DNA of 39,893 bases from Clostridiaceae bacterium (GCA_012521015.1 JAAYNE010000130.1:1-39893), one strand, 5' to 3'; positions 874-30,479 are shown, numbered from the stretch's first letter. A program made the numbers and translations. Notes: a model not told the origin generated them from the letters alone.

Positions 874-1830
874 ATGGTAGTTAATAGTGTATTAGGAAAA
901 ATATCGACAGATCAGCTTGGTTGTGTTTTAATGCATGAACACATTGTTTGTTGTGATTGGTCGATGAGAATGGCATTTCAAGAAAAGTGGTTTGATTATA
1001 ATAAAGTAGTAGAAATTGCTGTTGCTCAATTAAAAAAAGCAAAAGAAAATTTTGGGATTACTACAATTGTTGATGGTACTGCTGTTAATCTTGGCAGGGA
1101 TATTTATCTTATTAAAGAAGTTTCTGAAAAATCTGGTGTTAATATAATTGCATCATCTGGCATGTATTATAATGAAGAACCTTATTTAATGGGTAAACCT
1201 ACAAGTTATCTAATTGATTTAATGCTTGAGGAATGTTTAGAAGGCATTCAAAATACAAATGTTTTACCAGGAATTTTAAAAACTGCAACAGATTCTTATG
1301 GTCTAACCGAGCTAAACAAAAATTTGCTTTATATAACTAGTGTGGTACATAGGGAAACGGATCTTCCTATTTTTGCTCACTCTGATAGTAGATCTAAAGT
1401 AGGTTTGATTCAGCAAGACGAGTTTCAAAAGAATGGTGTGGATTTATCAAGAGTTATTATAGGCCATAGTGGAGATTCTAATGATTTGGGATATTTAGTA
1501 GGTCTATTAACAAGAGGTAGTTATATAGGGATGGATAGATTTGGGGACGATGAAAAGAATAGTTTACTTAATCGTTGTAGAACTATTGCGGAATTGTGTA
1601 AAAGAGGATGGTCAAAAAAAATGGTACTTTCCCATGATTTTTCTGCCTATATTGATTGGGGAAATCATAGCTGGGAGAAAACAAAAAATGCAGATTATTT
1701 GAACTTAGATGTTGACTATACTTATGTTCATCGTAAGGCTATCCCAGTTCTACAGGAGCTAGGAGTGACTGAAGAGCAAATTAATGATATGTTAATAGAA
1801 AATCCAAAGCGATTTTTCGAAGGTTATTAA
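874..1830 (+). CDS. Phosphotriesterase-family (PTE-like lactonase) metal-dependent hydrolase
   Basis: HEH near N-terminus, GILKTATD (candidate carboxylated Lys), AHSD, IGHSGDSNDLGYL, LSHD; ATG at 874 preceded by GGAGGG (ORF track start at 820 lacks an RBS). Confidence 0.88.
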   Translation: MVVNSVLGKISTDQLGCVLMHEHIVCCDWSMRMAFQEKWFDYNKVVEIAVAQLKKAKENFGITTIVDGTAVNLGRDIYLIKEVSEKSGVNIIASSGMYYNEEPYLMGKPTSYLIDLMLEECLEGIQNTNVLPGILKTATDSYGLTELNKNLLYITSVVHRETDLPIFAHSDSRSKVGLIQQDEFQKNGVDLSRVIIGHSGDSNDLGYLVGLLTRGSYIGMDRFGDDEKNSLLNRCRTIAELCKRGWSKKMVLSHDFSAYIDWGNHSWEKTKNADYLNLDVDYTYVHRKAIPVLQELGVTEEQINDMLIENPKRFFEGY

Positions 1831-1903
1831 TAAGGATATAATCAAACTTATTGAAAAGGAAAAGAATGACTATGACTTTATATAATAGTAGGGGGTATTT
1901 GTT

Positions 1904-2659
1904 ATGGTAGAATATCAGATAAAAATGTTAAAGATGGGTACTTTGTATGGTGAAAAATCTTCGTTGACTATGGGCATAGATTTTGGAGTTCCTATTCCTA
2001 TTCCAATGTGGTCAGCTGCTATAGAAGGAAATGGTCATAAAATAGTTGTTGACACGGGAATTAAGTCGCTGGAATGGACCAAAGAAAATTTAGGAGACCA
2101 ATATGAGGTAGAACAAGAAAGTGATGAAACAATGGAAGCTGCCCTTGAGCATATTGGTTGGAAGCCAGAAGAAGTTGATATTGTCATTAACACACATTTA
2201 CATTATGACCATTGTGGTTCTAACTATTTATTCAAAAACGCAAAGTTTTATTTGCAAAGTAGTGAATGGGATTATGCGTTTCAGCCAGTCAAAAACCAAG
2301 AGTGTTTTTATTATGAAGAACTTTTTGGTTGGCAAGCAGTAAGATATACATCCTGGAAAATGCTTTCAGGAGAATATCAGATTCTTCCTGGTCTTAGGGT
2401 AATACCACTTGGGGGACATTCTGTTGGAGGACAAGGGGTTTTTGTAAATACAAAAGAAGGTATTGTTTGTTTAGCTATGGATGCGGTTGGTCTATATGAG
2501 AACCTTGAAAACAATATCTTGCCTAACATAATGACAAATGTAGAAGATGGTTTTAAAGCATTTGATATTATCAGGAATAATTCTGATTTTGTTATACCAG
2601 GTCATGATACATGTATAAACAAATACCAAAGTTCAAACTTTCCAGTTGTTAATAAGTGA
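1904..2659 (+). CDS. MBL-fold hydrolase, N-acyl homoserine lactonase (AiiA/AttM)-like
   Basis: HLHYDHCG (HxHxDH), GGHSVGG, AMDA, IPGHD metal-ligand motifs; RBS AGGGGG upstream. Confidence 0.85.
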   Translation: MVEYQIKMLKMGTLYGEKSSLTMGIDFGVPIPIPMWSAAIEGNGHKIVVDTGIKSLEWTKENLGDQYEVEQESDETMEAALEHIGWKPEEVDIVINTHLHYDHCGSNYLFKNAKFYLQSSEWDYAFQPVKNQECFYYEELFGWQAVRYTSWKMLSGEYQILPGLRVIPLGGHSVGGQGVFVNTKEGIVCLAMDAVGLYENLENNILPNIMTNVEDGFKAFDIIRNNSDFVIPGHDTCINKYQSSNFPVVNK

Positions 2660-2669
2660 GGTGGAAAAT

Positions 2670-3434
2670 ATGACAAGTGAATATAAAATTAAAGTTTTGA
2701 ATATGGGCAGTGTGACTGTTGACAAAGGTGGAATGACAAGAGGAACAGACTGTGGCACGGAGCTAAGGATTCCTCAACAGGCTGTGGCGATAGAGGGTAA
2801 CAATTTAAAAATCATTTGTGATACTGGAGTTCATAGTGTTGACTGGGTCAATGCAAATGTGAGTACTGTGAAAGATTGTGTTTTAAAAGATGATGAATCT
2901 TTAGAAGGTGCTCTCAAACATATTGGTTGGAAGCCAGAAGAAGTTGATTACGTTATTAATACTCATTTACATTATGATCACTGTGGAGGTAATTATATTT
3001 TTAAAGGTTATAAAACGAAATTCGTTATACAAAAAAAAGAATGGGATTTTGCTTTTAATCCAACTCCGAACCAAGAACAATATTATATGACAGATTTGTT
3101 TAATCATAAGGCAGTGTTTCCAGATCAGATTTTATTGATTGATGGTGAAATTGAGCTTGAAGATGGGATAGTATTAATTCCGACTCCTGGACATACCAAA
3201 GGTCATCAATCGGTCTTAATTAACACAGAAGAAGGTGTGGTTTGTTTTGCAGCAGATGCTTCAAATATTTATGAAAATATAGATAAAGATATTATAGGTA
3301 ACATTTTGTATGACACATATTCAGGTTTTAAGTCTATGGAAGATATTCGACGAAAAGCAGAATTTATTATCTGTGGACATGAGCCTAGAACTGAGAAATA
3401 TCAAACAAATAATTTTATGAGAATCCATGTATAG
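2670..3434 (+). CDS. MBL-fold hydrolase, N-acyl homoserine lactonase-like, tandem paralogue
   Basis: HLHYDHCG, TPGHTKGHQS, AADA, CGHE; start at 2670 preceded by GAGGTGG; shares HIGWKPEEVD.VINTHLHYDHCG.NY.FK with the preceding gene. Confidence 0.85.
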   Translation: MTSEYKIKVLNMGSVTVDKGGMTRGTDCGTELRIPQQAVAIEGNNLKIICDTGVHSVDWVNANVSTVKDCVLKDDESLEGALKHIGWKPEEVDYVINTHLHYDHCGGNYIFKGYKTKFVIQKKEWDFAFNPTPNQEQYYMTDLFNHKAVFPDQILLIDGEIELEDGIVLIPTPGHTKGHQSVLINTEEGVVCFAADASNIYENIDKDIIGNILYDTYSGFKSMEDIRRKAEFIICGHEPRTEKYQTNNFMRIHV

Positions 3435-3554
3435 GAATCTACGTTGAGAGTAATGTATTTATTGATAATCAAATAGTGAAACAATATGTTAGAATAGTTG
3501 TAATATATTGTTTAGAATTTAAAACATCAAAAAAACAAAGAAAAAGGAGAAAAA

Positions 3555-4811
3555 ATGAAAAAGGTATTATCAGTGGTTCTTACACTTCTAGTTATTTTAA
3601 CTTTGATTGTAGGATGTTCCGGTGGAAAAAAAGACGAGGAAGTAGAGGAAAAGAAAGAGGAGAAAGTAGAGGAAAAAGTAGAGGAAAAGAAAGACGAGGA
3701 AGTAGAAGAAAAGAAAGACACAGAAACGGAGTCAGATAAAAAAGCAGAATCTTCAGATGATACGTATGGATTGCCAAAAGGAGATTGGCTAATAGGTTTT
3801 GCGAATGGTTATTTTGGTAACACTTGGAGAGCGCAATATGTAGAGAGTTTTGAACAAAAAGCAGAAGATTATAAGCAAAAGGGCATTATATCCGATTACA
3901 TCGTTCAAAGTACAAATGCAGATGCTACTGAGCAACTAAATCAAGTGAATGATATGATTGCAAAAGGTTGTGATGCAATACTAATCAATGCGGTTAGTGC
4001 GGCGGCTATGCAACCAGTAATTACTGCATGTAATAATGCAGATGTACTGCTTGTAATTGCGACTGATCCAGTTGGAATTGATGATTCTGTAGTAGAAGTT
4101 TTATGTGATAATGAGGCTTTATATTATATAATGTCAGAATGGATAGTATCTAAACTTAATGGAGAAGGTAATATCGTAAAAATAACTGGTACACCTGGAA
4201 TGCCTGCTACTGTAGTAAGACAAACAGTCGCGAATGAAGTGCTTTCTAAAACTAATATTAATGTTTTAGGAGAAGCTCCTGGTAGTTGGTCCCAAACAGA
4301 GGCTCAAACAGCAATGTCAACGCTACTTTCTACATATAGCAACATTGATGCAGTTTTAACCGAAGATGTCATGGCAGAAGGAATAATGCGTGCATACGAA
4401 ACTGCGGGAGAAGAACTTCCTCTTATGACCGGTGATTATGTTATGAGTTTTTTCAGAAAATGGGATGAAGTTGGTGGAGATCATGATTTTTGTGTAACTA
4501 CATTCCAAGCACAACATTCTGCAGATGCCTTGATGTACACAATCCGTGTTCTAAATGGATATGAACTTGATTATGAATTGCAACCGAATTCGCTTGATCA
4601 TGATTGTATTAACGCTATCATGTCACCTCCTTCATATTGTGTAACACTTAATGGTGTAACGGAAGAAGATAAGGATGAGTCATGGGCTAATTACGAAGGG
4701 GTTACATATATTTCTTTAGCAGAGGCTTTAGAGATAGGAGCTGACTTAGATGATACTGAGGGTTTAGGCAAGACACAAACTGAGGAAGAATGGGATCAGT
4801 ATTTTAAATAA
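3555..4811 (+). CDS. Sugar-type ABC transporter substrate-binding lipoprotein (periplasmic binding protein 4-like)
   Basis: Lipobox VGCSGG after hydrophobic signal, Lys/Glu linker, IGFANGYFGNTWRAQ..., TNADATEQLNQVNDMIAKGCDAILINAVS typical of ribose/rhizopine-type SBPs. Confidence 0.88.
   Translation: MKKVLSVVLTLLVILTLIVGCSGGKKDEEVEEKKEEKVEEKVEEKKDEEVEEKKDTETESDKKAESSDDTYGLPKGDWLIGFANGYFGNTWRAQYVESFEQKAEDYKQKGIISDYIVQSTNADATEQLNQVNDMIAKGCDAILINAVSAAAMQPVITACNNADVLLVIATDPVGIDDSVVEVLCDNEALYYIMSEWIVSKLNGEGNIVKITGTPGMPATVVRQTVANEVLSKTNINVLGEAPGSWSQTEAQTAMSTLLSTYSNIDAVLTEDVMAEGIMRAYETAGEELPLMTGDYVMSFFRKWDEVGGDHDFCVTTFQAQHSADALMYTIRVLNGYELDYELQPNSLDHDCINAIMSPPSYCVTLNGVTEEDKDESWANYEGVTYISLAEALEIGADLDDTEGLGKTQTEEEWDQYFK
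3630..3735 (+). repeat. Low-complexity Lys/Glu tandem repeat in SBP linker
   Basis: Reiterated gaggaagtagaggaaaagaaag units encoding KKDEEVEEKKEEKVEEKVEEKKDEEVEEKK. Confidence 0.8.
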
Positions 4812-4838
4812 GTAGGTGGTTATTATTGATAAATGCCA

Positions 4839-4881
4839 TTAAAGTTTATAGCTGTGTATGAAAACACAGCTATAACTTTAA
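4839..4881 (+). terminator. Strong intra-operon hairpin between SBP and ATPase genes (attenuator or mRNA-stabilising element)
   Basis: ttaaagtttatagctgtgt / acacagctataactttaa, 18 bp stem with one bulged T and 6-nt loop; no clean poly-U tract. Confidence 0.7.
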
Positions 4882-4918
4882 AAGGTATAATTTTAATAAA
4901 AAAATAGAGGTAAGTATT

Positions 4919-6403
4919 TTGAAGCTGGAATGTAAAAATATTAGCAAAAGATATGGAAGTGTTGTTGCTTTAAATAACGCTGATTTGACAATTGAGTCTG
5001 GTGAAATTAGGGGTCTGGTAGGTGGCAATGGGTCAGGAAAGAGTACTCTCTCTAAAATTTTATCTGGTGCAGCTGTTTTAGATGAAGGAGAAATTTTAAT
5101 CGATAATTTTCCTTATAAAGCTAATAGTCCAAGAGAAGGTAAAGAAAAGGGTATTGTAATGACTGCCCAGGAATTAAGTCTTTTAAGAAATTTATCCGTT
5201 TCATACAACATAAATTTGTGTTTTTTAGACGAAATATTGGGGAAATCAAGATTCATCAATAAAGATTATGCTGAGCAGAGAGCAATTGAACTGTTGGAAA
5301 TGCTGAATATAAAGCATATTTTAGAGATGAATATTAATGACATATCTACAAATGAGCAATATCTAGTTGAATTTGCCAAAGCACTCATTCAAAAACCAAA
5401 AATCCTAATTGTTGATGAAATTACATCTGCATTATATAAAAATGACGTTGAAATAGTCAAAAATGTTTTATTTAAGCTTAGAGATGAAGGTATTATAATA
5501 ATTTATATTTCTCATAGGTTAAATGAAATATTTGAAATATGTGATAATGTGACTGTTTTGCGTAATGGAAATACAGTTGGGACTTTTGATGTTAGTAATA
5601 TTGATGAAAATGAGCTTATTTCATATATGTCTGGTCGCGAGATAAAAGATGTTCTGGTTTCAGAGCATCTGGATGAAGGCTCCACTCCAGTTATATTAGA
5701 TACAAAGGATGTGCCTTTAAATGTACATAATAAAGATACGTCTGTAAGACTGAGAGTAAGAGAAAAAGAGTTTGTTGGAATAGCTGGTTTAGAGGGTCAA
5801 GGACAAAAAGATTTTTTGAGATCTCTTTTTGCGATAGATAAACCGATAACATTAGAATATAAAGGAGAGGTTGTTACATTGAATGGCCCTCGAGACGCAG
5901 TTAAGAATAAGTTTGCATTTATTTCAGGTGATAGAGAGGTAGAGGGCACCTTTAAAGAAAGAAGTATTGCTGAAAATGCGGTTGCTGTGAGCGATTTAGT
6001 TTTAAACAGTAAAATTCAAGAAGTAGATGACTTATTAAAAAATTCTGGTGTAAAATACTCAAATGCAAAAGATTTAATTATTTCTTTGTCGGGTGGAAAT
6101 CAACAAAAAGTTGTAATTTCTAGGTGGACAGCAACAAAACCTAACATAATTTTAGCAGATGATCCTACGAAAGGAATTGATATACAAGCAAGAAGAGATG
6201 TTCATGAGACTATGCGTAATATGTTAGAAAGTGGCAGTTCTGTTATCATGATTTCTAGTGATGATGAGGAATTAGTTGAAACTTCAAAAATGATGCCAAT
6301 GAGTAGAGTAGTTGTTTTCTATGAAGGTACTATTGTTGCTACACTTTATGGTGAGGATATAAGTTTGGAAAATATTTCAGCAACAAGTTCTGGAAAGTAT
6401 TAA
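4919..6403 (+). CDS. Sugar ABC transporter ATP-binding protein (RbsA/MglA-like, two NBDs)
   Basis: GGNGSGKST Walker A in NBD1, LSGGNQQKVVISRW in NBD2; TTG start with GAGG upstream. Confidence 0.88.
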   Translation: MKLECKNISKRYGSVVALNNADLTIESGEIRGLVGGNGSGKSTLSKILSGAAVLDEGEILIDNFPYKANSPREGKEKGIVMTAQELSLLRNLSVSYNINLCFLDEILGKSRFINKDYAEQRAIELLEMLNIKHILEMNINDISTNEQYLVEFAKALIQKPKILIVDEITSALYKNDVEIVKNVLFKLRDEGIIIIYISHRLNEIFEICDNVTVLRNGNTVGTFDVSNIDENELISYMSGREIKDVLVSEHLDEGSTPVILDTKDVPLNVHNKDTSVRLRVREKEFVGIAGLEGQGQKDFLRSLFAIDKPITLEYKGEVVTLNGPRDAVKNKFAFISGDREVEGTFKERSIAENAVAVSDLVLNSKIQEVDDLLKNSGVKYSNAKDLIISLSGGNQQKVVISRWTATKPNIILADDPTKGIDIQARRDVHETMRNMLESGSSVIMISSDDEELVETSKMMPMSRVVVFYEGTIVATLYGEDISLENISATSSGKY

Positions 6404-6420
6404 CGAAAGAGATTTAGAAA

Positions 6421-7407
6421 ATGAAAAGTAAATTGATAAATTTTATAAGATGGCCTGCGTTTGTCTCTTTGGTACTTTTGGTATCATTGTTAATAATAAA
6501 TCAAATTCTAAGCCCAGGTTACCTTAACAAAGCTTATATCACAAATTTTTTAGGCTCAAATGGTCCCTTGATAATGTCGAGTATAGGTTTATCCATTGTT
6601 TTAATTAGTGGTGGAATGGATATTTCTGTTGATGGTATTATGAGTCTAATTAATGTTGTCTATATAACTTTATCTGAAAGTGGTATGCAAACAATATTAA
6701 TTTTAGTTATTTGTATACTTGTAGGTCTTTTTTGTGGAATAATTAACGGACTATTTGTTGGATATTTAAGGATAACTCCGATACTGACAACTTTTGCGAC
6801 ATCATCGTTATTTTCTGGTATCGCTCTTTGGATTATGCCTTCACCTAGAGGATCTGTACCTAAAGGATTACTTAATTGGTACTATTCATGGTTAGGTGGT
6901 TTTGGAGCTCCGATTTTATTCCTTTTGATAATAGTAATCGGTTGGTTTATTATTAGAAAATCAAAGTTAGGGATAATGTTATATGCTGTTGGTGCAAATA
7001 AAGAAAATTCCTATTTATCTGGAATAAATGTATATAGAGTTCAATTTATCAGCTATGTGTTAGCTGCTTTATTTTATACAATTTCAGCAATCTCTATGAC
7101 AACCTACTTTAGTGGTGGTGATGCTACTGTTGCATCAGCATTGACGATGAAAGCTATTACTGCCTGTGTAATTGGCGGAGTTCTTTTGTCAGGAGGTGTG
7201 GGAGATGGAATTGGTGCTGCATTTGGTGCGACTTCTCTTGGCTTAGCAATTACAACGGTTTTAGCAATTGTAAAGAATGCATTTTTCCAAGATTTTGCAT
7301 CCGGTGTTCTAATGCTGATAGCAGTAATTGGATGTACTCTATTAAATAGATATATTGCAAATAAATTTTCTAAGAAGGGAGTGGTGATTAATGCTGAGAA
7401 AGATTAA
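6421..7407 (+). CDS. ABC transporter permease (RbsC-like)
   Basis: Polytopic; GGMDISVDGIMSL and GGVLLSGGVGDGIGA motifs of RbsC-family permeases. Confidence 0.88.
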   Translation: MKSKLINFIRWPAFVSLVLLVSLLIINQILSPGYLNKAYITNFLGSNGPLIMSSIGLSIVLISGGMDISVDGIMSLINVVYITLSESGMQTILILVICILVGLFCGIINGLFVGYLRITPILTTFATSSLFSGIALWIMPSPRGSVPKGLLNWYYSWLGGFGAPILFLLIIVIGWFIIRKSKLGIMLYAVGANKENSYLSGINVYRVQFISYVLAALFYTISAISMTTYFSGGDATVASALTMKAITACVIGGVLLSGGVGDGIGAAFGATSLGLAITTVLAIVKNAFFQDFASGVLMLIAVIGCTLLNRYIANKFSKKGVVINAEKD

Positions 7408-8353
7408 TAAGAATAACGAAATAATTAGGAATTTTCTCCCTTCAATTATAATTATTGTATTAATGCTTCTAGTCGGTAATATTTTAACCCCAGGTTTTAC
7501 ATCTGCAAATAATGTTTTTAATATAATTTGTAAAGCATCAGTTTTGACAATAGTGTGTATTGGACAGGCCTTTGTAATGATTTCTGGAAATTCAGGTATC
7601 GATATGTCTGTTGGATCGATAATGAGCTGTGCTGCTTTGCTTGGACCATCTATGACTCAAGGTCAAAATATTGGTTTACTGTGGTCACTACCCATTTTCT
7701 TGATATTGGGTTTTCTTGTTGGCGTTATAAATGGTTTATGTATACAAAAATTTAGACTCCCTGCTTTGGTTGTAACTTTGTGTATGGGGATAGTTGTTGA
7801 TGGACTAACAATAGGGTTTACTCACGGGAAGCCTTCTTTAAAAATTCCAGATTTATTGTTAGAACTAGGAATACCATATTTAGGGCGCATGCGATTATTG
7901 ACAATAATTGTAATAGTACTTTTATTTTTAATGGAATTATTTTTGCAAAAATCCAAATATGGTAGACAGCTGTTTCTATGTGGGAGCAATCAAAATGTTG
8001 CGAGATTGTCAGGGCTTCGTGTTAATGTAATTGTTGTTATATCCTATGGAATAAGTGCCATGATGGCTGCATTAGCTGGTTTTGCTTTAGTAGGATATGT
8101 GGGAAGTGCCCAATTGTTCATGGCTGATGAATACACAATGTTATCAGTGGCTTCTGTTGTTATTGGAGGAACAAGCTTGAGTGGTGGTAAAGGAGGAGTT
8201 ATTGGTGGAGCTCTAGGTGCTTTTGTCTTGTTCCTATTGACCAGTATTTTAACAGTCCTTGGATTACCAGATGGTGCTAGAATAGGTATTGAGGGACTTG
8301 TCTTATTGTTAATTTTAATGGCTAACAGTAGGGAAAGTAAATTAAGAATATAA
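7391..8353 (+). CDS. ABC transporter permease (RbsC-like), second subunit
   Basis: Polytopic; SGIDMSVGSIMS and GGTSLSGGKGGVIGGALGA motifs; 17-bp overlap with preceding permease ORF. Confidence 0.88.
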   Translation: MLRKINKNNEIIRNFLPSIIIIVLMLLVGNILTPGFTSANNVFNIICKASVLTIVCIGQAFVMISGNSGIDMSVGSIMSCAALLGPSMTQGQNIGLLWSLPIFLILGFLVGVINGLCIQKFRLPALVVTLCMGIVVDGLTIGFTHGKPSLKIPDLLLELGIPYLGRMRLLTIIVIVLLFLMELFLQKSKYGRQLFLCGSNQNVARLSGLRVNVIVVISYGISAMMAALAGFALVGYVGSAQLFMADEYTMLSVASVVIGGTSLSGGKGGVIGGALGAFVLFLLTSILTVLGLPDGARIGIEGLVLLLILMANSRESKLRI

Positions 8354-8514
8354 AGTATAATTTTAAATATCAAAAATAAAAGTAAGGAATAGGAAATTGA
8401 TACCAGTAAATTAGTGATATTTCGATTTAGTGTAAGTAAAACGGAATATTAATAAAGTATATATAAGCGAGAAAACTAGAAAACAGGTGAACGGGAACAA
8501 CCTCTGTAAAAGGC

Positions 8515-8577
8515 AAAAGAATTATACTTAGTATATTGGTCGAAGTCTAGATTGATCTTATAGAGTATAATTCTTTT
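8515..8577 (+). terminator. Long inverted repeat after importer operon (candidate terminator)
   Basis: aaaagaattatact (8515-8528) / agtataattctttt (8564-8577), perfect 14 bp, followed by T-rich sequence. Confidence 0.55.
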
Positions 8578-9101
8578 GTTAGGTTTTTAATTTTTTGATA
8601 TTGTCACATTCTGAAAATAACAAATATTGGTTACTTTTTGAATACTTTATAGAGCAAAAAATTATATGATTTCTTCATATCTCTTTGAAATAATGTGGGC
8701 AGCAGAAATATTCTGGTAATTGCAATAATTGTTTTTTATGCTCTATGACTTTGTATGAATAGAAATAGACAAATATTTGGTATTGGAATATTAATCATTT
8801 ATAATTACTTTAGGAATCGGATGTGGCAAATGAGATCGATTCTTTTATGTTCTAACCTTAAATGCGGAAAGTTTTAGGACATATAATCCTTACTATTAGG
8901 TCCTAGGATTTGATGTTAGAGAATCAGTGGCTATGATTAGATTATGCAAAGAAATTAAAAAAGAAATTATAAATATATATAATTAATACTAAGATAACCG
9001 GTCTCGAACATCAGAAGACGACCTTTATTACAGAAGTGTGACTTGCTGTATTTAAAATATTTTCAAGAGGGATTGGTTTTAGTTGGAAATGACATCTAGT
9101 G

Positions 9102-9120: not shown

Positions 9121-9217
9121 ATTAATTTTAAGCTAGCGGTTCTAAAAGTCTAAAAAATTGATGGATGAAGCTTTGCTTAAAGATGATTTGTTTTATTTAT
9201 ATGGATTATATAGAGAC

Positions 9218-10150
9218 ATGTTAGTTGTAAAAAGCATTAAAAAAAAGTATAGAGATAGTGTAGTTTTGGACAATATTTCATTTAATATTAAAAAAGGTGA
9301 AATATGTGGTTTTTTGGGGGTTAATGGAGCAGGTAAATCTACGACCATCAATATTATCAGTAGTTATCTTAGTCCTGATTCTGGCTCTGTAGAGTTGAAT
9401 GGTATTGGTTTTGGTAATTATAAAGAGTATAGAAAACAATTTGGGTTTTTGCCTGAAAAACCACCTATATATCTTGATATGACGGTGCAAGAATATTTGT
9501 CTTTTGTTTATGATGCGAAAGGCTTACCTAGGAAAGATAAAAGTAAAAATATCAATTACTCCTTAGAAATAACGCAAATAGGGGATGCTAGGAAACGGCT
9601 TATTAATAATCTATCAAAGGGCTTTAGACAACGGATTGGGATTGCTCAAGCTGTGTTGGGGAATCCCAGTATTCTATTACTAGATGAGCCAATGATAGGT
9701 TTAGATCCCTTACAAATTTTTCAAATGCGTTCGATGTTTAATATGTTAAAAGAACAATTTACAGTTTTGATGAGTTCTCACATTTTATCTGAAATTTTTG
9801 AAATATGTGACAGAATTTTGTTGTTAAGTGGTGGGAATATAGTTTATGATGGTTCGAAGGAATGCTTTTTTTCAAAAGACACAAAAACAAGTGAATTTAT
9901 TATTACTACAAATAAATCTCTTGAGAAGTCTCATATTGATGCTATTTTAAAGATAAAAGGAATCTTGTCAGTTTGTAACTTAGATAATGTCACATACAAT
10001 ATAACATTAAAAAATATTCTACATGAAAATGAAATTAAAAAAGAGCTATTGTTGTTTTTATTGGGTCAAGATATTTCGATTAATGAATTATCACCTAGTT
10101 TACAAAACAATGATTTAGAGAGTGTTTTCTTAAGTTATATTTGTGATTAA
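9218..10150 (+). CDS. ABC transporter ATP-binding protein (GldA/CcmA-like)
   Basis: GVNGAGKSTT Walker A, LSKGFRQRIGIAQA signature, ILLLDEPMIGLDP Walker B; start uncertain (ORF track starts at 9158). Confidence 0.9.
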   Translation: MLVVKSIKKKYRDSVVLDNISFNIKKGEICGFLGVNGAGKSTTINIISSYLSPDSGSVELNGIGFGNYKEYRKQFGFLPEKPPIYLDMTVQEYLSFVYDAKGLPRKDKSKNINYSLEITQIGDARKRLINNLSKGFRQRIGIAQAVLGNPSILLLDEPMIGLDPLQIFQMRSMFNMLKEQFTVLMSSHILSEIFEICDRILLLSGGNIVYDGSKECFFSKDTKTSEFIITTNKSLEKSHIDAILKIKGILSVCNLDNVTYNITLKNILHENEIKKELLLFLLGQDISINELSPSLQNNDLESVFLSYICD

Positions 10151-10223
10151 TTTGAGCTACTTGATAAAAATATGAACTATTTATTATCAAGAATTGATAA
10201 CAGAGAGATTATATGATAATTGT

Positions 10224-10925
10224 ATGAAATATGTATTAAAAAAGGAATTACTGTCATATTTTAATAATTTAAGTGGATATATATATATATCCCTTTTCTT
10301 TTCTGTTAATTCATATTATTTTGTTGTATCAAATTTAATGGCTGGGCAAAATAATGTAGCCGAATATTTTCAAAGTATGAGTACAACTATTATGTTTCTG
10401 ATTCCCATTTTGACAATGAAAGTCTATTCAGAAGAGAAAAAACACAAGACAGATCAGTTGTTGTTTACTTTGCCACTAAACATCTACTCTTTAATGCTTG
10501 CAAAGTTTTTAGCTACTTTTATCATATTTCTTATGGGCGTATTTTCTACAATTTTATTTGTTGTTATTTTATCATTTTTTGGGCAAGTAGATTATTTAAT
10601 AGTTTTGAGCTCGTATTTAGGAATAATTTTAGCGGGTTCTAGCTTTTTATCTTTTGGGATTTTTATTTCCTCTCTTACTGAAAATCAAGCTACTGCATCA
10701 ATAATCACTTTTTCGATTTTATTCTTTTTTAATATAGTAGTTTATGCAAAAAATTATATAAATAATCCCATTGTTCTAAAAACAATAGATGTGATAGCAA
10801 TATTTGAAAGATATAAATTATTTACTATTGGTATATTTGATTTTGAAGCAGTAGTTTATTATTTATCGATTGTTTTTTTATTCTTTAGTTTGACAAAAGT
10901 TTCTTTAACTAAACATAATATTTAG
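10224..10925 (+). CDS. ABC-2-type permease (GldF-like)
   Basis: Hydrophobic; MKYVLKKELLSYFNNLSGYIYI and MKVYSEEKKHKTDQLLFTLP typical of GldF-type ABC-2 permeases; between ATPase and GldG homologue. Confidence 0.82.
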   Translation: MKYVLKKELLSYFNNLSGYIYISLFFSVNSYYFVVSNLMAGQNNVAEYFQSMSTTIMFLIPILTMKVYSEEKKHKTDQLLFTLPLNIYSLMLAKFLATFIIFLMGVFSTILFVVILSFFGQVDYLIVLSSYLGIILAGSSFLSFGIFISSLTENQATASIITFSILFFFNIVVYAKNYINNPIVLKTIDVIAIFERYKLFTIGIFDFEAVVYYLSIVFLFFSLTKVSLTKHNI

Positions 10926-10958
10926 TGATGGTTTTATAGGATATTAGATTGATTAGCT

Positions 10959-12359
10959 ATGAAAAACAGAAAAAGTATTTATATTATATTGTTGTTAATT
11001 CTGATTGTTATTATCAATATATTTTTCCAAAAACTAGGAAAAATAATTAATTTAAAATTTGATTTTACTACAAATAGTCTTTATTCAATTTCTGAAGAAA
11101 CTGTAAATATTGTATCTAAATTAGATAATAGTGTTACCATCTTTTATATTAAACCTACAGATAATGATATTACTGAGATATCAAGATTATTAACAGAGTA
11201 TTCTAAAGTTAGTGACAAGATCACTGTAAAGTATATAAATCCAGCGACTGATTTTTTGTTTATAGACAAATATGAGTTATTAGATGTTCCTATAAAGCTG
11301 AACTCAATAATTGTAGAATCAGAAACTAATAGATACGTCCTTCAGCTAGAAGACATGTATAATTTTAGTACTGATGGAACTAAAGTATTGTTTTCAGGCG
11401 AATCTAAATTAACAAATGCAATTGTTAATGTTTCCAATCCTAATAAGAGTATAATTGGATATGCTCAAGGACATGGAGAAGATTCACCTTCAATACTAAC
11501 GGCTTTGTTATTGGAATCAGGGTATACTACTTCTAGTTTAATCTTTAACAAACCGATTCCTGAAGACATTGATGTATTGTTAATTTTATCTCCAAAGTCT
11601 GACTATACAGACCATGAAATAAAAATATTGGATGAATATCTTTCTAAAGGTGGATCCATTGTGTTTTTTAAACACACTTTTTCTGATAATCTTGTTAAAT
11701 TATATTCATATTTAAGTGAATGGGGTATTAAATTTAATGAAGATCTAGTTTTGGATTACAATAACAATATTCTAGACAATAGTTCTTACGTCATTTCGCA
11801 GTTTTATCAACATGAAATTAACAATTACTTCAAGAATAATAGCTACTATGTTGTAGTTCCTAGTGCAAATAGTATTTCTAAAGATTTTAGTAACAATACT
11901 AATTCAGATGTATTACCTGTTCTATCAAGTTCAGATAATGCATACTCTCGCAGCCAACAAGATATATACAAAGATTTTGATAATCAAATTTATAGTTCAA
12001 CCCAGGTTCCTAATGCAAATGATGAGAAAGGATCGTTTGTGTTGGCTGCTACTTCTTCTAGAAACTATAATAATGGAAAAATTGGTAAGATATTTGCCTG
12101 CGGATCACATAGGATGTATTACGATAATTTATTGGGTTTAAATTCAGTGGCCAATTCTAGATTTTTCATAGAAATATTAAAATGGGGAATACAATCTAAG
12201 CAAGATTCTCTGCCAATTTTAGGGAAAGAAATAGGTTCTATGCCCATTACTGTTTCAACAGTTCAAATTAATTTACTAACATTTCTTCTAGTTTTTGCGA
12301 TTCCTATCTGTATATTACTCTATGGTGTTATCAATAATTATAAAAGGAGACAGTTATGA
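10959..12359 (+). CDS. GldG-family ABC transporter auxiliary protein
   Basis: N-terminal TM, FDFTTNSLYSISEET, GYAQGHGE, LLILSPKSDYTDHEIKILDEYLSKGGS, C-terminal TM. Confidence 0.82.
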   Translation: MKNRKSIYIILLLILIVIINIFFQKLGKIINLKFDFTTNSLYSISEETVNIVSKLDNSVTIFYIKPTDNDITEISRLLTEYSKVSDKITVKYINPATDFLFIDKYELLDVPIKLNSIIVESETNRYVLQLEDMYNFSTDGTKVLFSGESKLTNAIVNVSNPNKSIIGYAQGHGEDSPSILTALLLESGYTTSSLIFNKPIPEDIDVLLILSPKSDYTDHEIKILDEYLSKGGSIVFFKHTFSDNLVKLYSYLSEWGIKFNEDLVLDYNNNILDNSSYVISQFYQHEINNYFKNNSYYVVVPSANSISKDFSNNTNSDVLPVLSSSDNAYSRSQQDIYKDFDNQIYSSTQVPNANDEKGSFVLAATSSRNYNNGKIGKIFACGSHRMYYDNLLGLNSVANSRFFIEILKWGIQSKQDSLPILGKEIGSMPITVSTVQINLLTFLLVFAIPICILLYGVINNYKRRQL

Positions 12360-13657
12360 AAATATCTTCTAGTAAGATTTTAATAATCTCGATAATAATA
12401 TTATTGATGCTAATATATTTATTGAATTCAATTTCAAATCATCAAGTATTGAGTAAAGAGCGATTAATCCCGTCTAATTACTCAAATAAGATTAATCGAA
12501 TAACAGTAGTAAATAATAAAAAAAGTGATAATACTTATACAATAGATAATGATTTATTAAATGGGGAATTGACTTTAGAAGATTCTTTAGAATTGGAAGG
12601 TTTTGCACTGAATTTTCCAGCTATTCAATTTATTTGGGATAAATTAATAAACATTGAAGTACAAGAAATAATATACGAGGACAATGCTGAACAATATTTT
12701 CAAGAACCTCTGATGTCTATAACTTACAATACAGGGAAAGAAGAAATTACATTTATATTTGGGAAAAAGGTTGAAATAATAAATGGCTATTATGTAAAAG
12801 AGGTATTATCTAATGACGATAAAAGCAATAAAGAAACATTTATAGTTAATTCAGAAGAAGTCGAACAAATTATTAATGCAAAAAACGGTTTTTATTTACG
12901 AAACCTGATTGATTTTAATTATGAAAGTGATTATGAATATCTTAACAGTATTGAAATTTGGCATAAAGACAATATTATTTTTGGGATTAATAAAGAAAAT
13001 GATGACTTTTTGTTAAGTTATCCAATTTCTTATATATGTAACTATCATAAACTAAAAAGCATATTATTAGATCCCGTGATGCATTTAAAATGGGGTGAAG
13101 TTGCTGATGAATTAATCAATTTCTCAGAGGCGGGTCTAGATGACCCAAATTACACCATTAAATACAGTTATAAAGGTGATTTGATTGATATTCTTATAGG
13201 TAAATCTGAAGGCAGTGAAACATATATTTCTAAAAGAGGAAGCGAACAAATTTTTTTGATTGAAAATAATAATTTATCTTTTTTAGGAATAGATTATAGA
13301 GAGTTAATAGGCGATACAGTTTATAACAGAAGACTAAATTCTATAAAAACTTTAAATATCAAATATAAGGGAAAAACGTATAATTTTGATGCATTATCAA
13401 ATGAGGGGAAAAATTATAATAATTTGCTCAGAGCTATTTCTAATACGAAAATTTTTGATACAGTTGATGTTAATACATATCTTGACGATAGCAATAATCT
13501 TGAAATCAACATATCGTTATATTCTGAGATTAATGATCATTTAGTTTTTACTCCAATTAATGATAGAGAGTATGCCTTTTTTATTAATGATATTAGTTAT
13601 TTTTCGGTACAATCTCGTGACGTTGATAATATTATTGACGCATTAGATGGTCTTTAA
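12356..13657 (+). CDS. DUF4340-type protein of the GldG cassette
   Basis: N-terminal TM then beta-rich repeats; ATGA overlap with gldG-like gene; position typical of DUF4340 partners. Confidence 0.68.
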   Translation: MKISSSKILIISIIILLMLIYLLNSISNHQVLSKERLIPSNYSNKINRITVVNNKKSDNTYTIDNDLLNGELTLEDSLELEGFALNFPAIQFIWDKLINIEVQEIIYEDNAEQYFQEPLMSITYNTGKEEITFIFGKKVEIINGYYVKEVLSNDDKSNKETFIVNSEEVEQIINAKNGFYLRNLIDFNYESDYEYLNSIEIWHKDNIIFGINKENDDFLLSYPISYICNYHKLKSILLDPVMHLKWGEVADELINFSEAGLDDPNYTIKYSYKGDLIDILIGKSEGSETYISKRGSEQIFLIENNNLSFLGIDYRELIGDTVYNRRLNSIKTLNIKYKGKTYNFDALSNEGKNYNNLLRAISNTKIFDTVDVNTYLDDSNNLEINISLYSEINDHLVFTPINDREYAFFINDISYFSVQSRDVDNIIDALDGL

Positions 13658-13783: not shown

Positions 13784-14962
13784 ATGGAGAATGTGGTTAT
13801 AGTATCAAGTGCGAGAACGGCTGTAGGTAGTTTTGGTGGATCTTTAAAAGAGTATCAGGCACCCGATTTAGGTGGATTTGCAATTAAATCTTCGGTAGAA
13901 CGGGCAGGATTAGAGCCAAAAGATATTGATGAAGTTGTCATGGGATGTGTAGCAACTGCTGCGGAAAATGCTTTCATGGCTCGTATATGTTCAGTGAATG
14001 CTGGTATTCCCTATGAAGCCGGGGCATTGACTGTAAATCGGCTTTGTGCTAGTGGATTGCAGTCAATTGTTACGGCAGCTATGGAAATAAACCAAGGTTT
14101 TGCCAACATTGTTGCAGCCGGTGGTGCAGAGAGTATGAGTAATATACCTTTTTATTTAAGAAAAGCTCGTTTCGGTTATAGAATGGGAAATTCAGTATTA
14201 GAAGATGGATTAATAACAGCGTTAACAGATCCCTTTTCTGGTTCTCATATGGGTTTAACTGCTGAAAATATAGCAGAAAAATATAATATTTCACGTGAAG
14301 AACAAGATGAATATGCATTTGAAAGTCAAAAAAGAGCTATTGCTGCAAGAGATGCGGGGAAATTTTCAGATGAAATATTCCCAGTTGAGTATAGAATAGA
14401 TAGAAAAACAAAAGGTATTTTTGAAAATGATGAATTTATTAGAGACAATAGCAGTTTAGAGTCATTAGCAAGGCTTAGACCTGCTTTCAAAGAAAATGGT
14501 TCGGTTACTGCGGGTAATGCGTCAGGTATAAATGATGCTGGTGCTGCTATGATTTTAATGAGAGAATCTGAAGCAAAAAAACGCAATATTAAACCCCTTG
14601 TTAAGATAAAAGATTCTGCTGTAGCTGGTGTTGATCCCAATTATATGGGTACTGGTCCTATTCCTGCAACCAGAAAATTGTTTGAAAAAACCGGGTTAAC
14701 AAAAGATGATATTGGTTTATTTGAATTAAATGAAGCTTTTGCTGCTCAAGCAATAGCATGTATTCGTGAATTAGAGTTAGATCTAGATAAGGTGAATGTT
14801 AATGGATCTGGAATCTCTATAGGGCATCCAATTGGAGCTACAGGTGCTATAATAACTATTAAGTTAATTAACGAGATGATACGAAGACAAGAACAATATG
14901 GTATTGCTACATTATGTATTGGTGGAGGACAAGGTTTGTCTGTATTGTTTGAATTGTGTTAA
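13784..14962 (+). CDS. Acetyl-CoA acetyltransferase (thiolase)
   Basis: VNRLCASGLQS active Cys, GHPIGATG, CIGGGQG; RBS AAAGGGG upstream. Confidence 0.95.
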   Translation: MENVVIVSSARTAVGSFGGSLKEYQAPDLGGFAIKSSVERAGLEPKDIDEVVMGCVATAAENAFMARICSVNAGIPYEAGALTVNRLCASGLQSIVTAAMEINQGFANIVAAGGAESMSNIPFYLRKARFGYRMGNSVLEDGLITALTDPFSGSHMGLTAENIAEKYNISREEQDEYAFESQKRAIAARDAGKFSDEIFPVEYRIDRKTKGIFENDEFIRDNSSLESLARLRPAFKENGSVTAGNASGINDAGAAMILMRESEAKKRNIKPLVKIKDSAVAGVDPNYMGTGPIPATRKLFEKTGLTKDDIGLFELNEAFAAQAIACIRELELDLDKVNVNGSGISIGHPIGATGAIITIKLINEMIRRQEQYGIATLCIGGGQGLSVLFELC

Positions 14963-15008: not shown

Positions 15009-15764
15009 ATGTTTATGTATGATTTTTCAAATAAGTTTGTTTTAGTAACAGGGGCAGCTCAAGGAATAGGTCTAGCTATTGCGAGACGATTTGTTACTGA
15101 ACATGCATCAGGAGTAGCATTGATTGATTACAATCAGGACTCTTTGAACAATGCATTAGCAGAATTAGAGTCTATCAATACTGACAGTGTTATTTTACCA
15201 GTATCTTGTGATGTTTCAAATTATGAAAATTTATCTTTAGCAATTAATCAAATAATTGATAGATTTGGTCGCATTGATATCTTGATAAATAATGCAGGAA
15301 TCACAAGAGATGCAATATTTCACAAAATGAGTTTAGATCAATGGAACGATGTTATCAATATAAATTTGAATGGCGTTTTTAATTGTACTAGATTAGTAAT
15401 AAATGGCATGAGAGAGAATAACTATGGAAAAATAGTTAACATGTCTTCAAAATCTGCATATGGTGAAGTAGGACAGGCAAACTATGCAGCTACCAAAGCT
15501 GCTTTAGTAGGATTTACAAAAACTCTTGCTAAAGAGGGTGCTAGAAAGAATATAACTGTAAATGCTGTATTGCCTGATTTTATTGATACACCCATGATGA
15601 ATGCAATTCCTCAAGAAAATTTACAAAGAAGAATTGAAGATGCACCAATGAAAAGAATGGGAAAACCAGAAGAGGTAGCTGCTTTAGTAGCTTTTTTGTC
15701 TAGTGATGAATCTTCATATGTAACTGGAGAAACTATCAATTGTAATGGTGGTACTAGGACTTAG
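15009..15764 (+). CDS. SDR-family reductase, PhaB/FabG-like (acetoacetyl-CoA or 3-oxoacyl reductase)
   Basis: TGAAQGIG, NNAGITRDAIFHKMS, Ser-x12-Tyr-x3-Lys (S..NYAATK), C-terminal VTGETINCNGG. Confidence 0.9.
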   Translation: MFMYDFSNKFVLVTGAAQGIGLAIARRFVTEHASGVALIDYNQDSLNNALAELESINTDSVILPVSCDVSNYENLSLAINQIIDRFGRIDILINNAGITRDAIFHKMSLDQWNDVININLNGVFNCTRLVINGMRENNYGKIVNMSSKSAYGEVGQANYAATKAALVGFTKTLAKEGARKNITVNAVLPDFIDTPMMNAIPQENLQRRIEDAPMKRMGKPEEVAALVAFLSSDESSYVTGETINCNGGTRT

Positions 15765-28474: not shown

Positions 28475-28532
28475 ATTTTAAGATTATTACAGATAAATTG
28501 TAACATACAAAATAGAATAAGGGGTGCTTGCT

Positions 28533-30479
28533 ATGGCCAAAAGAAAAAAGAAAAATATTGAAGATGTATCTGTACAGGACAAAAAAATTATAGTCAGAGT
28601 TGACTTTAATGTTCCTCTGGATAAACAAACAGGTGAAATTACAGACGATAAGAGAATCAGAGCTGCTTTGCCGACAATTCAATATTTAGTTGATAACAAA
28701 GCAAAAGTTATTTTGATGTCACATCTTGGCAGACCGCAAGGATTTGATCCGAAGCTGTCAATGAAGCCGGTTGCAGATCGTTTAAGTGAATATTTGGGCC
28801 AAGAAGTAATCTTGGCAGCGGATGTGATCGGTGATGATGCTAAGGCCAAGGCTGAAAATTTACAAGCAGGCGAAGTAATGATGTTGGAAAATTTGCGTTA
28901 CCAAGCTGAAGAAACTAAAAACGATCCTGCTTTTGCCAGAGAACTTGCAAGTTTGGCTGAAATATATGTAAATGATGCTTTCGGAACTGCACATCGTGCA
29001 CATGCATCAACTGCAGGTGTAGCGAATTATTTACCGGCATATGCAGGCTATTTAATCCAAAAAGAGATTGAAGTTATGGGCAAAGCAATTACTGATCCGA
29101 AACAGCCGTTTGTAGCAATTTTGGGTGGTGCTAAGGTTTCCGATAAAATTGGTGTGATTCGTAATCTTTTGCCACAAGTTGAAACTTTGATAATTGGCGG
29201 TGGTATGGCATTTACTTTCTTAAAAGCTCAAGGACTGGAAATAGGCACCTCGTTATGCGAAGAGGATAAACTTGATTTGGCAAAATCGTTATTGGAAGAA
29301 GCTGCAGCACAAAATGTCAATCTGTTATTACCGGTTGATACTGTTGCAGCATCAAACTTTACGGCAGATGCAGCATATAAGATCGTTGATGTTGAGGCAA
29401 TGCCGGCTGATATGATGGGTCTTGATATCGGACCGAAAACTGTCGAAAAATTCTCGGAAGCAGTCAAAACAGCAGGTACCGTTGTTTGGAACGGTCCGAT
29501 GGGTGTTTTTGAATTTGAAGAATTTGCCAAAGGAACCAGAGCGATTGCTGAAGCTTTAGCAAATTCCGATGCAATCAGTATTGTAGGTGGAGGCGATTCT
29601 GCGGCGGCTGTTGAATTGATGGGCTTTGCAGATCAGGTTACACATATTTCAACCGGCGGCGGAGCATCTTTAGAATTGCTTGAAGGTAAAGTTTTGCCAG
29701 GCTTGGATTGTCTTTTAGACGGTGGAGAAGGACGTCAAACTTTTGCTGCAGGCAATTGGAAAATGAATAGCGGTGTCCCTGCCGATGCGGAAAAATTATT
29801 GAGTGAATTATTACCTTTGGTTAAAGATGCTGATTCCACGATTGCAATCGGTGTACCATTTACTGCACTGACCAAAGCTTTAGAAGTTACAGCATATAGT
29901 AATATCAAGATTGCTGCTCAGAATTGTCATTTCCAAGATAATGGTGCCTATACAGGCGAAGTTTCAGCCAAAATGCTGGCTTATATGGGTGTGCCGTATG
30001 TAATTATCGGTCATTCGGAACGCAGAGAATATTTTGCAGAAACAGATGAAACTGTAAATTTAAAAGCTAAAGCAGCTCTTCACTGGGGTGTTCGCCCGAT
30101 TATTTGCTGCGGTGAAAGTTTAGAACAGCGTGAAGCAGGTGAAACTTTTGCTTGGATCAAAGAACAGATTACCAACGGTTTAAAAGATATTCCTGCCGAA
30201 AAAATGGGATTTATAACAATTGCTTATGAGCCAATTTGGGCAATAGGTACGGGAAAAACGGCTTCAGATGAACAAGCACAAGAAGTCTGTGCTTATATTA
30301 GAGAATTAATTGCCGAATTATATAATACGGAGATCGCTTCAGAATTAAGAATTCAATATGGCGGCTCAGTCAATGCCGGAAATGCTGCAGGATTATTTGC
30401 TCAACCGGACATTGACGGAGGTTTAGTTGGTGGTGCTTCATTAAAACCTCAAGATTTCAGTGTTATTTGCTTAGTATAA
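28533..30479 (+). CDS. Bifunctional phosphoglycerate kinase / triosephosphate isomerase fusion
   Basis: [77 protein letters not shown]; one continuous ORF, TIM part from about 29733. Confidence 0.97.

Follow-up and report, generated by a model that had tools for sequence, protein, structure and literature searches.

What compound does a bacterium take up and degrade when genes for lactonase-like hydrolases of two unrelated folds lie beside those for a sugar-type transporter? The question is raised by an operon at positions 874-8353 of a 39,893-nucleotide stretch of DNA from an anaerobic Clostridiaceae bacterium (GCA_012521015.1, JAAYNE010000130.1), hereafter the window, which is one entire contig of a 2.08 Mb assembly (156 contigs, 89.5% complete). 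An earlier note on this DNA had proposed a phosphotriesterase (PTE)-family enzyme and two tandem AiiA-like metallo-beta-lactamase (MBL) hydrolases encoded co-directionally with a complete CUT2 (ribose-type) ATP-binding cassette (ABC) importer, and the open reading frames (ORFs) and Pfam matches agree with that layout, with all genes on the + strand. Our analysis indicates that the operon probably serves to take up and open a small polar lactone of a 3-hydroxy acid, as the first part of a pathway for its catabolism. Its seven genes are:

874-1830, + strand: PTE-family amidohydrolase, a putative lactonase (Pfam PF02126, E=1e-64; PDB 4if2, E=7.8e-62; SsoPox, PDB 2vc5, E=1.3e-51)
1904-2659, + strand: MBL1, an AiiA/4-pyridoxolactonase-like MBL-fold hydrolase (Pfam Lactamase_B PF00753, E=1.3e-14; NCBIfam AHLLactAiiA, 9.6e-33, under the equivalog cut-off; PDB AiiA, E=7.8e-21)
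2670-3434, + strand: MBL2, an MBL-fold hydrolase and paralogue of MBL1 (46% identical; PF00753, E=2.6e-21; fold search with a structural model)
3555-4811, + strand: CUT2-type lipoprotein substrate-binding protein, SBP (Peripla_BP_4, 2.2e-40)
4919-6403, + strand: CUT2-type ATPase with two ABC domains (TTG start; two ABC_tran stretches, 9.7e-40)
6421-7407, + strand: permease A (BPD_transp_2, 5.5e-24)
7391-8353, + strand: permease B (BPD_transp_2, 3.3e-27)

The MBL-SBP-ATPase-permease core recurs in genome G216, from the same class, in G658, from another class, and on three Caballeronia replicons. In G216 the order MBL-SBP-ATPase-permease A-permease B is kept at 42-53% identity, the genes in the corresponding positions being 42% identical to permease A and 53% to permease B, and in G658 the same genes are clustered. 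All MBL2 matches in the plasmid search (39-40%) came from Caballeronia, and in each of the three replicons examined, one of which (L057) carries no annotation and was read from ORFs, the MBL gene directly precedes SBP-ATPase-permease. The operon was absent from the 37 family relatives searched; at the thresholds used, MBL2 relatives were confined to 1 further genome among 391 of the class and to 2 among 398 across the phylum, and a scan of viral contigs gave no match. Because genes so rare, judged by 38 family genomes and by about 390 each for class and phylum, recur elsewhere as an MBL-ABC unit, chance is not an issue. The gene order proposed in the earlier note is therefore upheld for the MBL and importer genes, and the PTE gene is not part of it.

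Each closest MBL relative found sits in a catabolic cluster. The G216 cluster continues with genes for LacI (opposite strand), an AMP-dependent acyl-CoA ligase, a CoA-transferase, a short-chain dehydrogenase/reductase (SDR), a 3-hydroxyacyl-CoA dehydrogenase, a thiolase, a TRAP transporter and a glycerate kinase. The G658 cluster runs LacI, ligase, CoA-transferase, SDR, 3-hydroxyacyl-CoA dehydrogenase, VOC protein, MBL, PF04199 cyclase-family protein, SBP, ATPase, permease A, permease B, thiolase and a further MBL. The G440 MBL gene has as companions genes for a ligase, a thiolase, a CoA-transferase, an SDR and an MFS transporter, the last of these scoring best, though under cut-off, in the galactonate-type family; thus CoA ligase and CoA-transferase are present in all three genomes. 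(Some of these names rest on sequence similarity and on reading by eye, namely CoA-transferase and SDR in G216 and LacI in G658 and G440.) The Caballeronia MBL-importer genes have as neighbours an SDR, a beta-keto-acid cleavage enzyme, a 3-hydroxyacyl-CoA dehydrogenase and an SMP-30 lactonase-family gene. The logic common to the clusters is a hydrolase, CoA activation, oxidation at C3 and thiolysis, with SDR oxidation and beta-keto-acid cleavage instead in Caballeronia, and this logic implies that the hydrolase must release a 3-hydroxy acid.

Furthermore, the G216 enzyme set is that published for deoxyribonate catabolism in Klebsiella michiganensis, where genes for a CoA-synthetase (CoA ligase), beta-hydroxyacyl-CoA dehydrogenase, thiolase, CoA-transferase, lactonase and glycerate kinase lie together (Price et al., PMC6365646). 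In the Klebsiella 2-deoxyribonate route, which runs through CoA intermediates and is the nearest precedent, the shorter cleavage product, glyceryl-CoA, is converted to glycerate, which is then phosphorylated (PMC6365646). Klebsiella employs MFS transporters and a lactonase of its own, whereas G216, G658 and the window have CUT2 ABC importers and MBL-type putative lactonases; moreover, the window shows only the transport, lactonase, thiolase and SDR genes of such a pathway. It is the shared enzyme logic, together with the whole CoA set in G216 as in Klebsiella, that makes import and ring opening of a 3-hydroxy-acid lactone the function we consider most likely.

In the pathway that we propose, the CUT2 importer would bring in the lactone or its hydroxy acid, presumably the lactone, and the two MBL hydrolases would open it to the 3-hydroxy acid, with the PTE-family enzyme possibly taking on a different isomer or ring size. 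Activation of the acid as a CoA thioester would be followed by oxidation at C3, through an SDR or a 3-hydroxyacyl-CoA dehydrogenase, and a thiolase would then split the product into acetyl-CoA and a shorter acyl-CoA, much as in fatty-acid breakdown. The best single guess at the substrate is a 2-deoxyaldonolactone and, as one compound, 2-deoxyribonolactone, a doubtful choice when it has to stand alone. Tentatively, the genes might represent an undescribed, widely transferred module in which a CUT2 system imports an intact 2-deoxyaldonolactone or a similar lactone of a 3-hydroxy acid and AiiA-type MBLs act as catabolic lactonases ahead of CoA-linked thiolysis, in anaerobes.

Three genes flanking the operon bear on the later steps:

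1-248, + strand: thiolase gene, 3' part only, truncated where the contig begins (translation resembles a thiolase C-terminus)
13784-14962, + strand: thiolase of the beta-ketothiolase type, probably part of the pathway (identity and tree with the cluster thiolases)
15009-15764, + strand: SDR of the acetoacetyl-CoA-reductase/FabG type, a candidate 3-hydroxyacyl-CoA dehydrogenase (NCBIfam FabG/AcAcCoA_reduct)

With the G658 cluster thiolase the downstream thiolase shares 61% identity, and with those of its own family 53% at most; it forms one group with the G658, G440 and G216 cluster thiolases (support 100/99), apart from the family thiolases. The upstream fragment most resembles the G216 cluster thiolase (57.5% over 80 aa, against at most 52% for others and at most 50% for family thiolases), a weak indication given its shortness; the contig breaks inside this gene, and a search of the genome's own assembly did not find the missing N-terminus. 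The two thiolases would be consistent with a cluster that arrived jointly with the operon. The downstream SDR is 42-45% identical to the cluster SDRs, and we infer that it is linked to the operon because the thiolase adjoins it. MBLs, thiolase and SDR thus lie within 16 kb in the window, as expected of a deoxyribonate-type pathway, with another gene set between them; in G216 the set is complete. The interposed stretch, 9158-13657, encodes an ABC ATPase, an ABC-2-type permease and two large proteins, by eye a gliding/exporter-type set, has a GC of 0.269 and looks like a separate insertion or an older neighbour.

The pairing of the PTE with two MBLs, on which the earlier note had laid weight, did not hold up beyond this locus. 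Among the clusters found, it is unique to the window: the PTE is absent from every related MBL cluster, and hence the combination of two folds is a local addition. PTE homologues of class genomes (L004-L008) and of plasmids lie in other contexts, in which MBL-ABC synteny was not found. A scan of genome contigs yielded one actinobacterial PTE (39% identity), and the ORFs predicted around it matched none of the seven operon proteins, ORF calls being unreliable in that high-GC DNA. At E<=1e-20 a PTE is present in only 1 of the 37 family relatives, at 29% identity, which suggests recent or patchy acquisition of the operon; GC is 0.336 in the operon and 0.378 in the housekeeping region of the same contig. 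In a genome of the same genus, locus L030 (G037:C45, 1455-8826) carries another PTE, 26-29% identical, beside a different CUT2 importer and, by eye, an apparent FGGY kinase, an independent PTE-importer pairing.

The earlier note had also read the metal ligands of both folds in all three enzymes, and motif positions and PDB alignments bear this out. The PTE has the ligand set of PTE-like lactonases on a TIM barrel, namely HxH, a carboxylated Lys, two His and an Asp (H21, H23, K136, H169, H198 and D255), and keeps the residues aligned with SsoPox Tyr97, Arg223 and Trp263, which we take to mark PTE-like lactonases. These ligands and lactonase-type residues are common to SsoPox, M. tuberculosis 4if2 and phospho-furanose lactonase, but the window PTE is distant from every solved member and scores 60 bits against the NCBIfam phospho-furanose lactonase cut-off of 630. 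Its start is assigned to ATG 874, preceded by a GGAGG-like site, in preference to an upstream TTG at 820. MBL1 and MBL2 both have the AiiA-type ligands on the MBL fold (HxHxDH, His, Asp, His), seen as HLHYDH, the GGH/PGH histidine, the bridging Asp and the C-terminal GH, and share fold, ligands and size with AiiA-type N-acyl homoserine lactonases, at about 25% identity in the fold alignment. The MBL2 model (pLDDT 83.9) has as its top PDB folds AiiA and, best of all, the 4-pyridoxolactonase of Mesorhizobium loti, itself a catabolic lactonase (TM 0.85; 25% identity). The MBL tree does not settle whether the two paralogues arose by duplication within the lineage.

The importer has the composition of CUT2 ribose/xylose systems: a Peripla_BP_4 SBP, an ATPase with two ABC domains and two BPD_transp_2 permeases. 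Ribose, xylose or arabinose cannot be named as its substrate, since every NCBIfam score of the importer proteins falls far under the equivalog cut-off, including those of the ATPase, whose best matches are xylose, arabinose and ribose ATPases. A fold search with the SBP model suggested ribose-, xylose- and galactofuranose-binding proteins, but the model is only moderate (pLDDT 67) and no ligand was read from it. The SBP retains the equivalents of Arg141 and Asp215 of ribose-binding protein and has Pro in place of Arg90, all three being residues that we assume to be ribose contacts. Also, a very repetitive Glu/Lys linker (KKDEEVEEKKEEK..., encoded at 3615-3765) separates the SBP lipoprotein signal from the SBP domain; the G216 and G658 homologues are much shorter or different there.

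The sugar-binding relatives of the importer would suit an ordinary aldonolactone or sugar operon, in which a pentose or its lactone is imported and the hydrolases act as housekeeping lactonases for sugars that enter a kinase route. This is also favored by PTE homologues of the class that lie near apparent sugar kinases and aldolases (kinases called by eye; L028, L030), and by the same-genus genome in which PTE, apparent FGGY kinase and CUT2 importer occur together. We nevertheless consider it unlikely, as no sugar kinase, isomerase or aldolase is found in the window operon or the MBL clusters, which have CoA-ester enzymes instead. The G658 cyclase-family gene points in another direction, PF04199 being the family of dihydrophloroglucinol cyclohydrolase: the MBLs might open a carbocyclic 1,3-diketone by C-C hydrolysis, as in anaerobic phloroglucinol breakdown, rather than a lactone. 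The Caballeronia cleavage enzyme, at 561 bits, does exceed the 3,5-dioxohexanoate family cut-off of 430, but five further neighbourhoods of that enzyme family contain no annotated cyclase, and the family label is therefore broad. Additionally, the clusters of the window, G216 and Caballeronia showed no cyclase-family gene, and SMP-30 and the PTE indicate lactones, so that this reading seems very improbable. Of the PF04199 cyclohydrolase and triacetate lyase that a phloroglucinol pathway would combine, neither was seen among the window genes, the cyclase being confined to G658 and the lyase-family gene to Caballeronia.

By sequence and fold, the best named relatives of MBL1 and MBL2 are AiiA and 4-pyridoxolactonase, and on that ground they could serve in quorum quenching or vitamin B6 breakdown, acting on acyl-homoserine lactones or 4-pyridoxolactone. 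Their scores, however, are far under the curated equivalog cut-offs (113 and 118 bits against 375 for AiiA; 89 and 123 against 325 for 4-pyridoxolactonase), and this, together with the lack of the AiiA Tyr194, makes quorum quenching unlikely. The enzymes are cytoplasmic and adjoin an importer and CoA-ester enzymes, and other B6-degradation genes were not seen in the clusters; taken as a whole, this is the explanation to which we give least credence. The tyrosine also matters for a different proposal, that the hydrolases are esterases or organophosphate/amide hydrolases acting on an unrelated imported compound, the lactone link being mere family resemblance. The MBLs do not conserve the position of the catalytic Tyr194 (Asn in MBL2; a YEN motif lies two residues later), and the PTE and MBL superfamilies are both promiscuous. 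We regard this as quite improbable, because in clusters independent of one another the MBL accompanies members of different known lactonase families (SMP-30, PTE) as well as enzymes needing a hydroxy acid.

Besides the missing tyrosine, several observations weigh against a 3-hydroxy-acid lactone pathway at this locus. The low-GC exporter-type set parts the operon from the thiolase-SDR pair, and no regulator gene adjoins the operon. Of the clusters, only that of G216 showed a glycerate kinase, the window's own genome not having been searched for it. Neither a PF01144 CoA-transferase nor a stand-alone AMP-dependent acyl-CoA ligase was found in the window's own assembly, which is 89.5% complete, so CoA activation in this genome is something we infer. 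AMP-binding domains do occur there in very large frames on contigs C50, C113 and C154 of G000, three of them in one 3573-aa frame of C50; these frames are probably nonribosomal peptide synthetases.

The proposal that lactonase-type enzymes with a dedicated importer serve catabolism rather than quorum quenching gains support from the neighbourhoods, which add a CoA-linked oxidation route. The MBL group, with genes annotated as N-acyl homoserine lactonases (for example in Caballeronia records), recurs beside sugar-type importers and enzymes that oxidise 3-hydroxy acids, both in two Bacillota classes and in Betaproteobacteria, with a distant halophilic archaeal relative by CoA genes, and is more likely catabolic than quorum-quenching. 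This suggests that some enzymes labelled quorum-sensing blockers would be food-processing enzymes, and offers small polar lactones of 3-hydroxy acids as a substrate class for a set of unassigned ABC importers. The archaeal relative, 31% identical to the G216 MBL, is an 'N-acyl homoserine lactonase family' gene on a Salinigranum rubrum plasmid (L062, 4316-7937) that adjoins an AMP-binding ligase and a CaiB-type CoA-transferase. G216 has one more MBL of this group (L015, 463-12724), located among TRAP-type transporter genes and a citrate-lyase-like gene (citE/RipC-like), which hints at a further pathway for an organic-acid lactone.

Gaps of 73, 10, 120, 107 and 17 bases separate successive genes of the operon, and the two permease genes overlap. 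Two structures may affect its expression:

4843-4886, + strand: strong stem-loop after the SBP gene (fold of intergenic 4812-4918)
~8505-8585, + strand: inverted repeat then T-rich tract, probable operon end (fold of 8354-8640)

The first, a long hairpin in an intergenic stretch that folds at -28.6 kcal/mol, may limit downstream expression. The second, a long AT-rich hairpin (AAAAGAATTATACT...AGTATAATTCTTTT) with its T tract, probably ends the operon; it was missed by a consensus terminator scan, which demands a G+C-rich stem and short loop. The 625-base leader folds only slightly better than shuffles (z -2.5), and an Rfam scan found no riboswitch upstream of the operon, its sole match being a tRNA at the far end. 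Elsewhere in the window, a single 651-aa frame (28524-30479) reads by eye as a phosphoglycerate kinase-triosephosphate isomerase fusion, a type known from some other bacteria.

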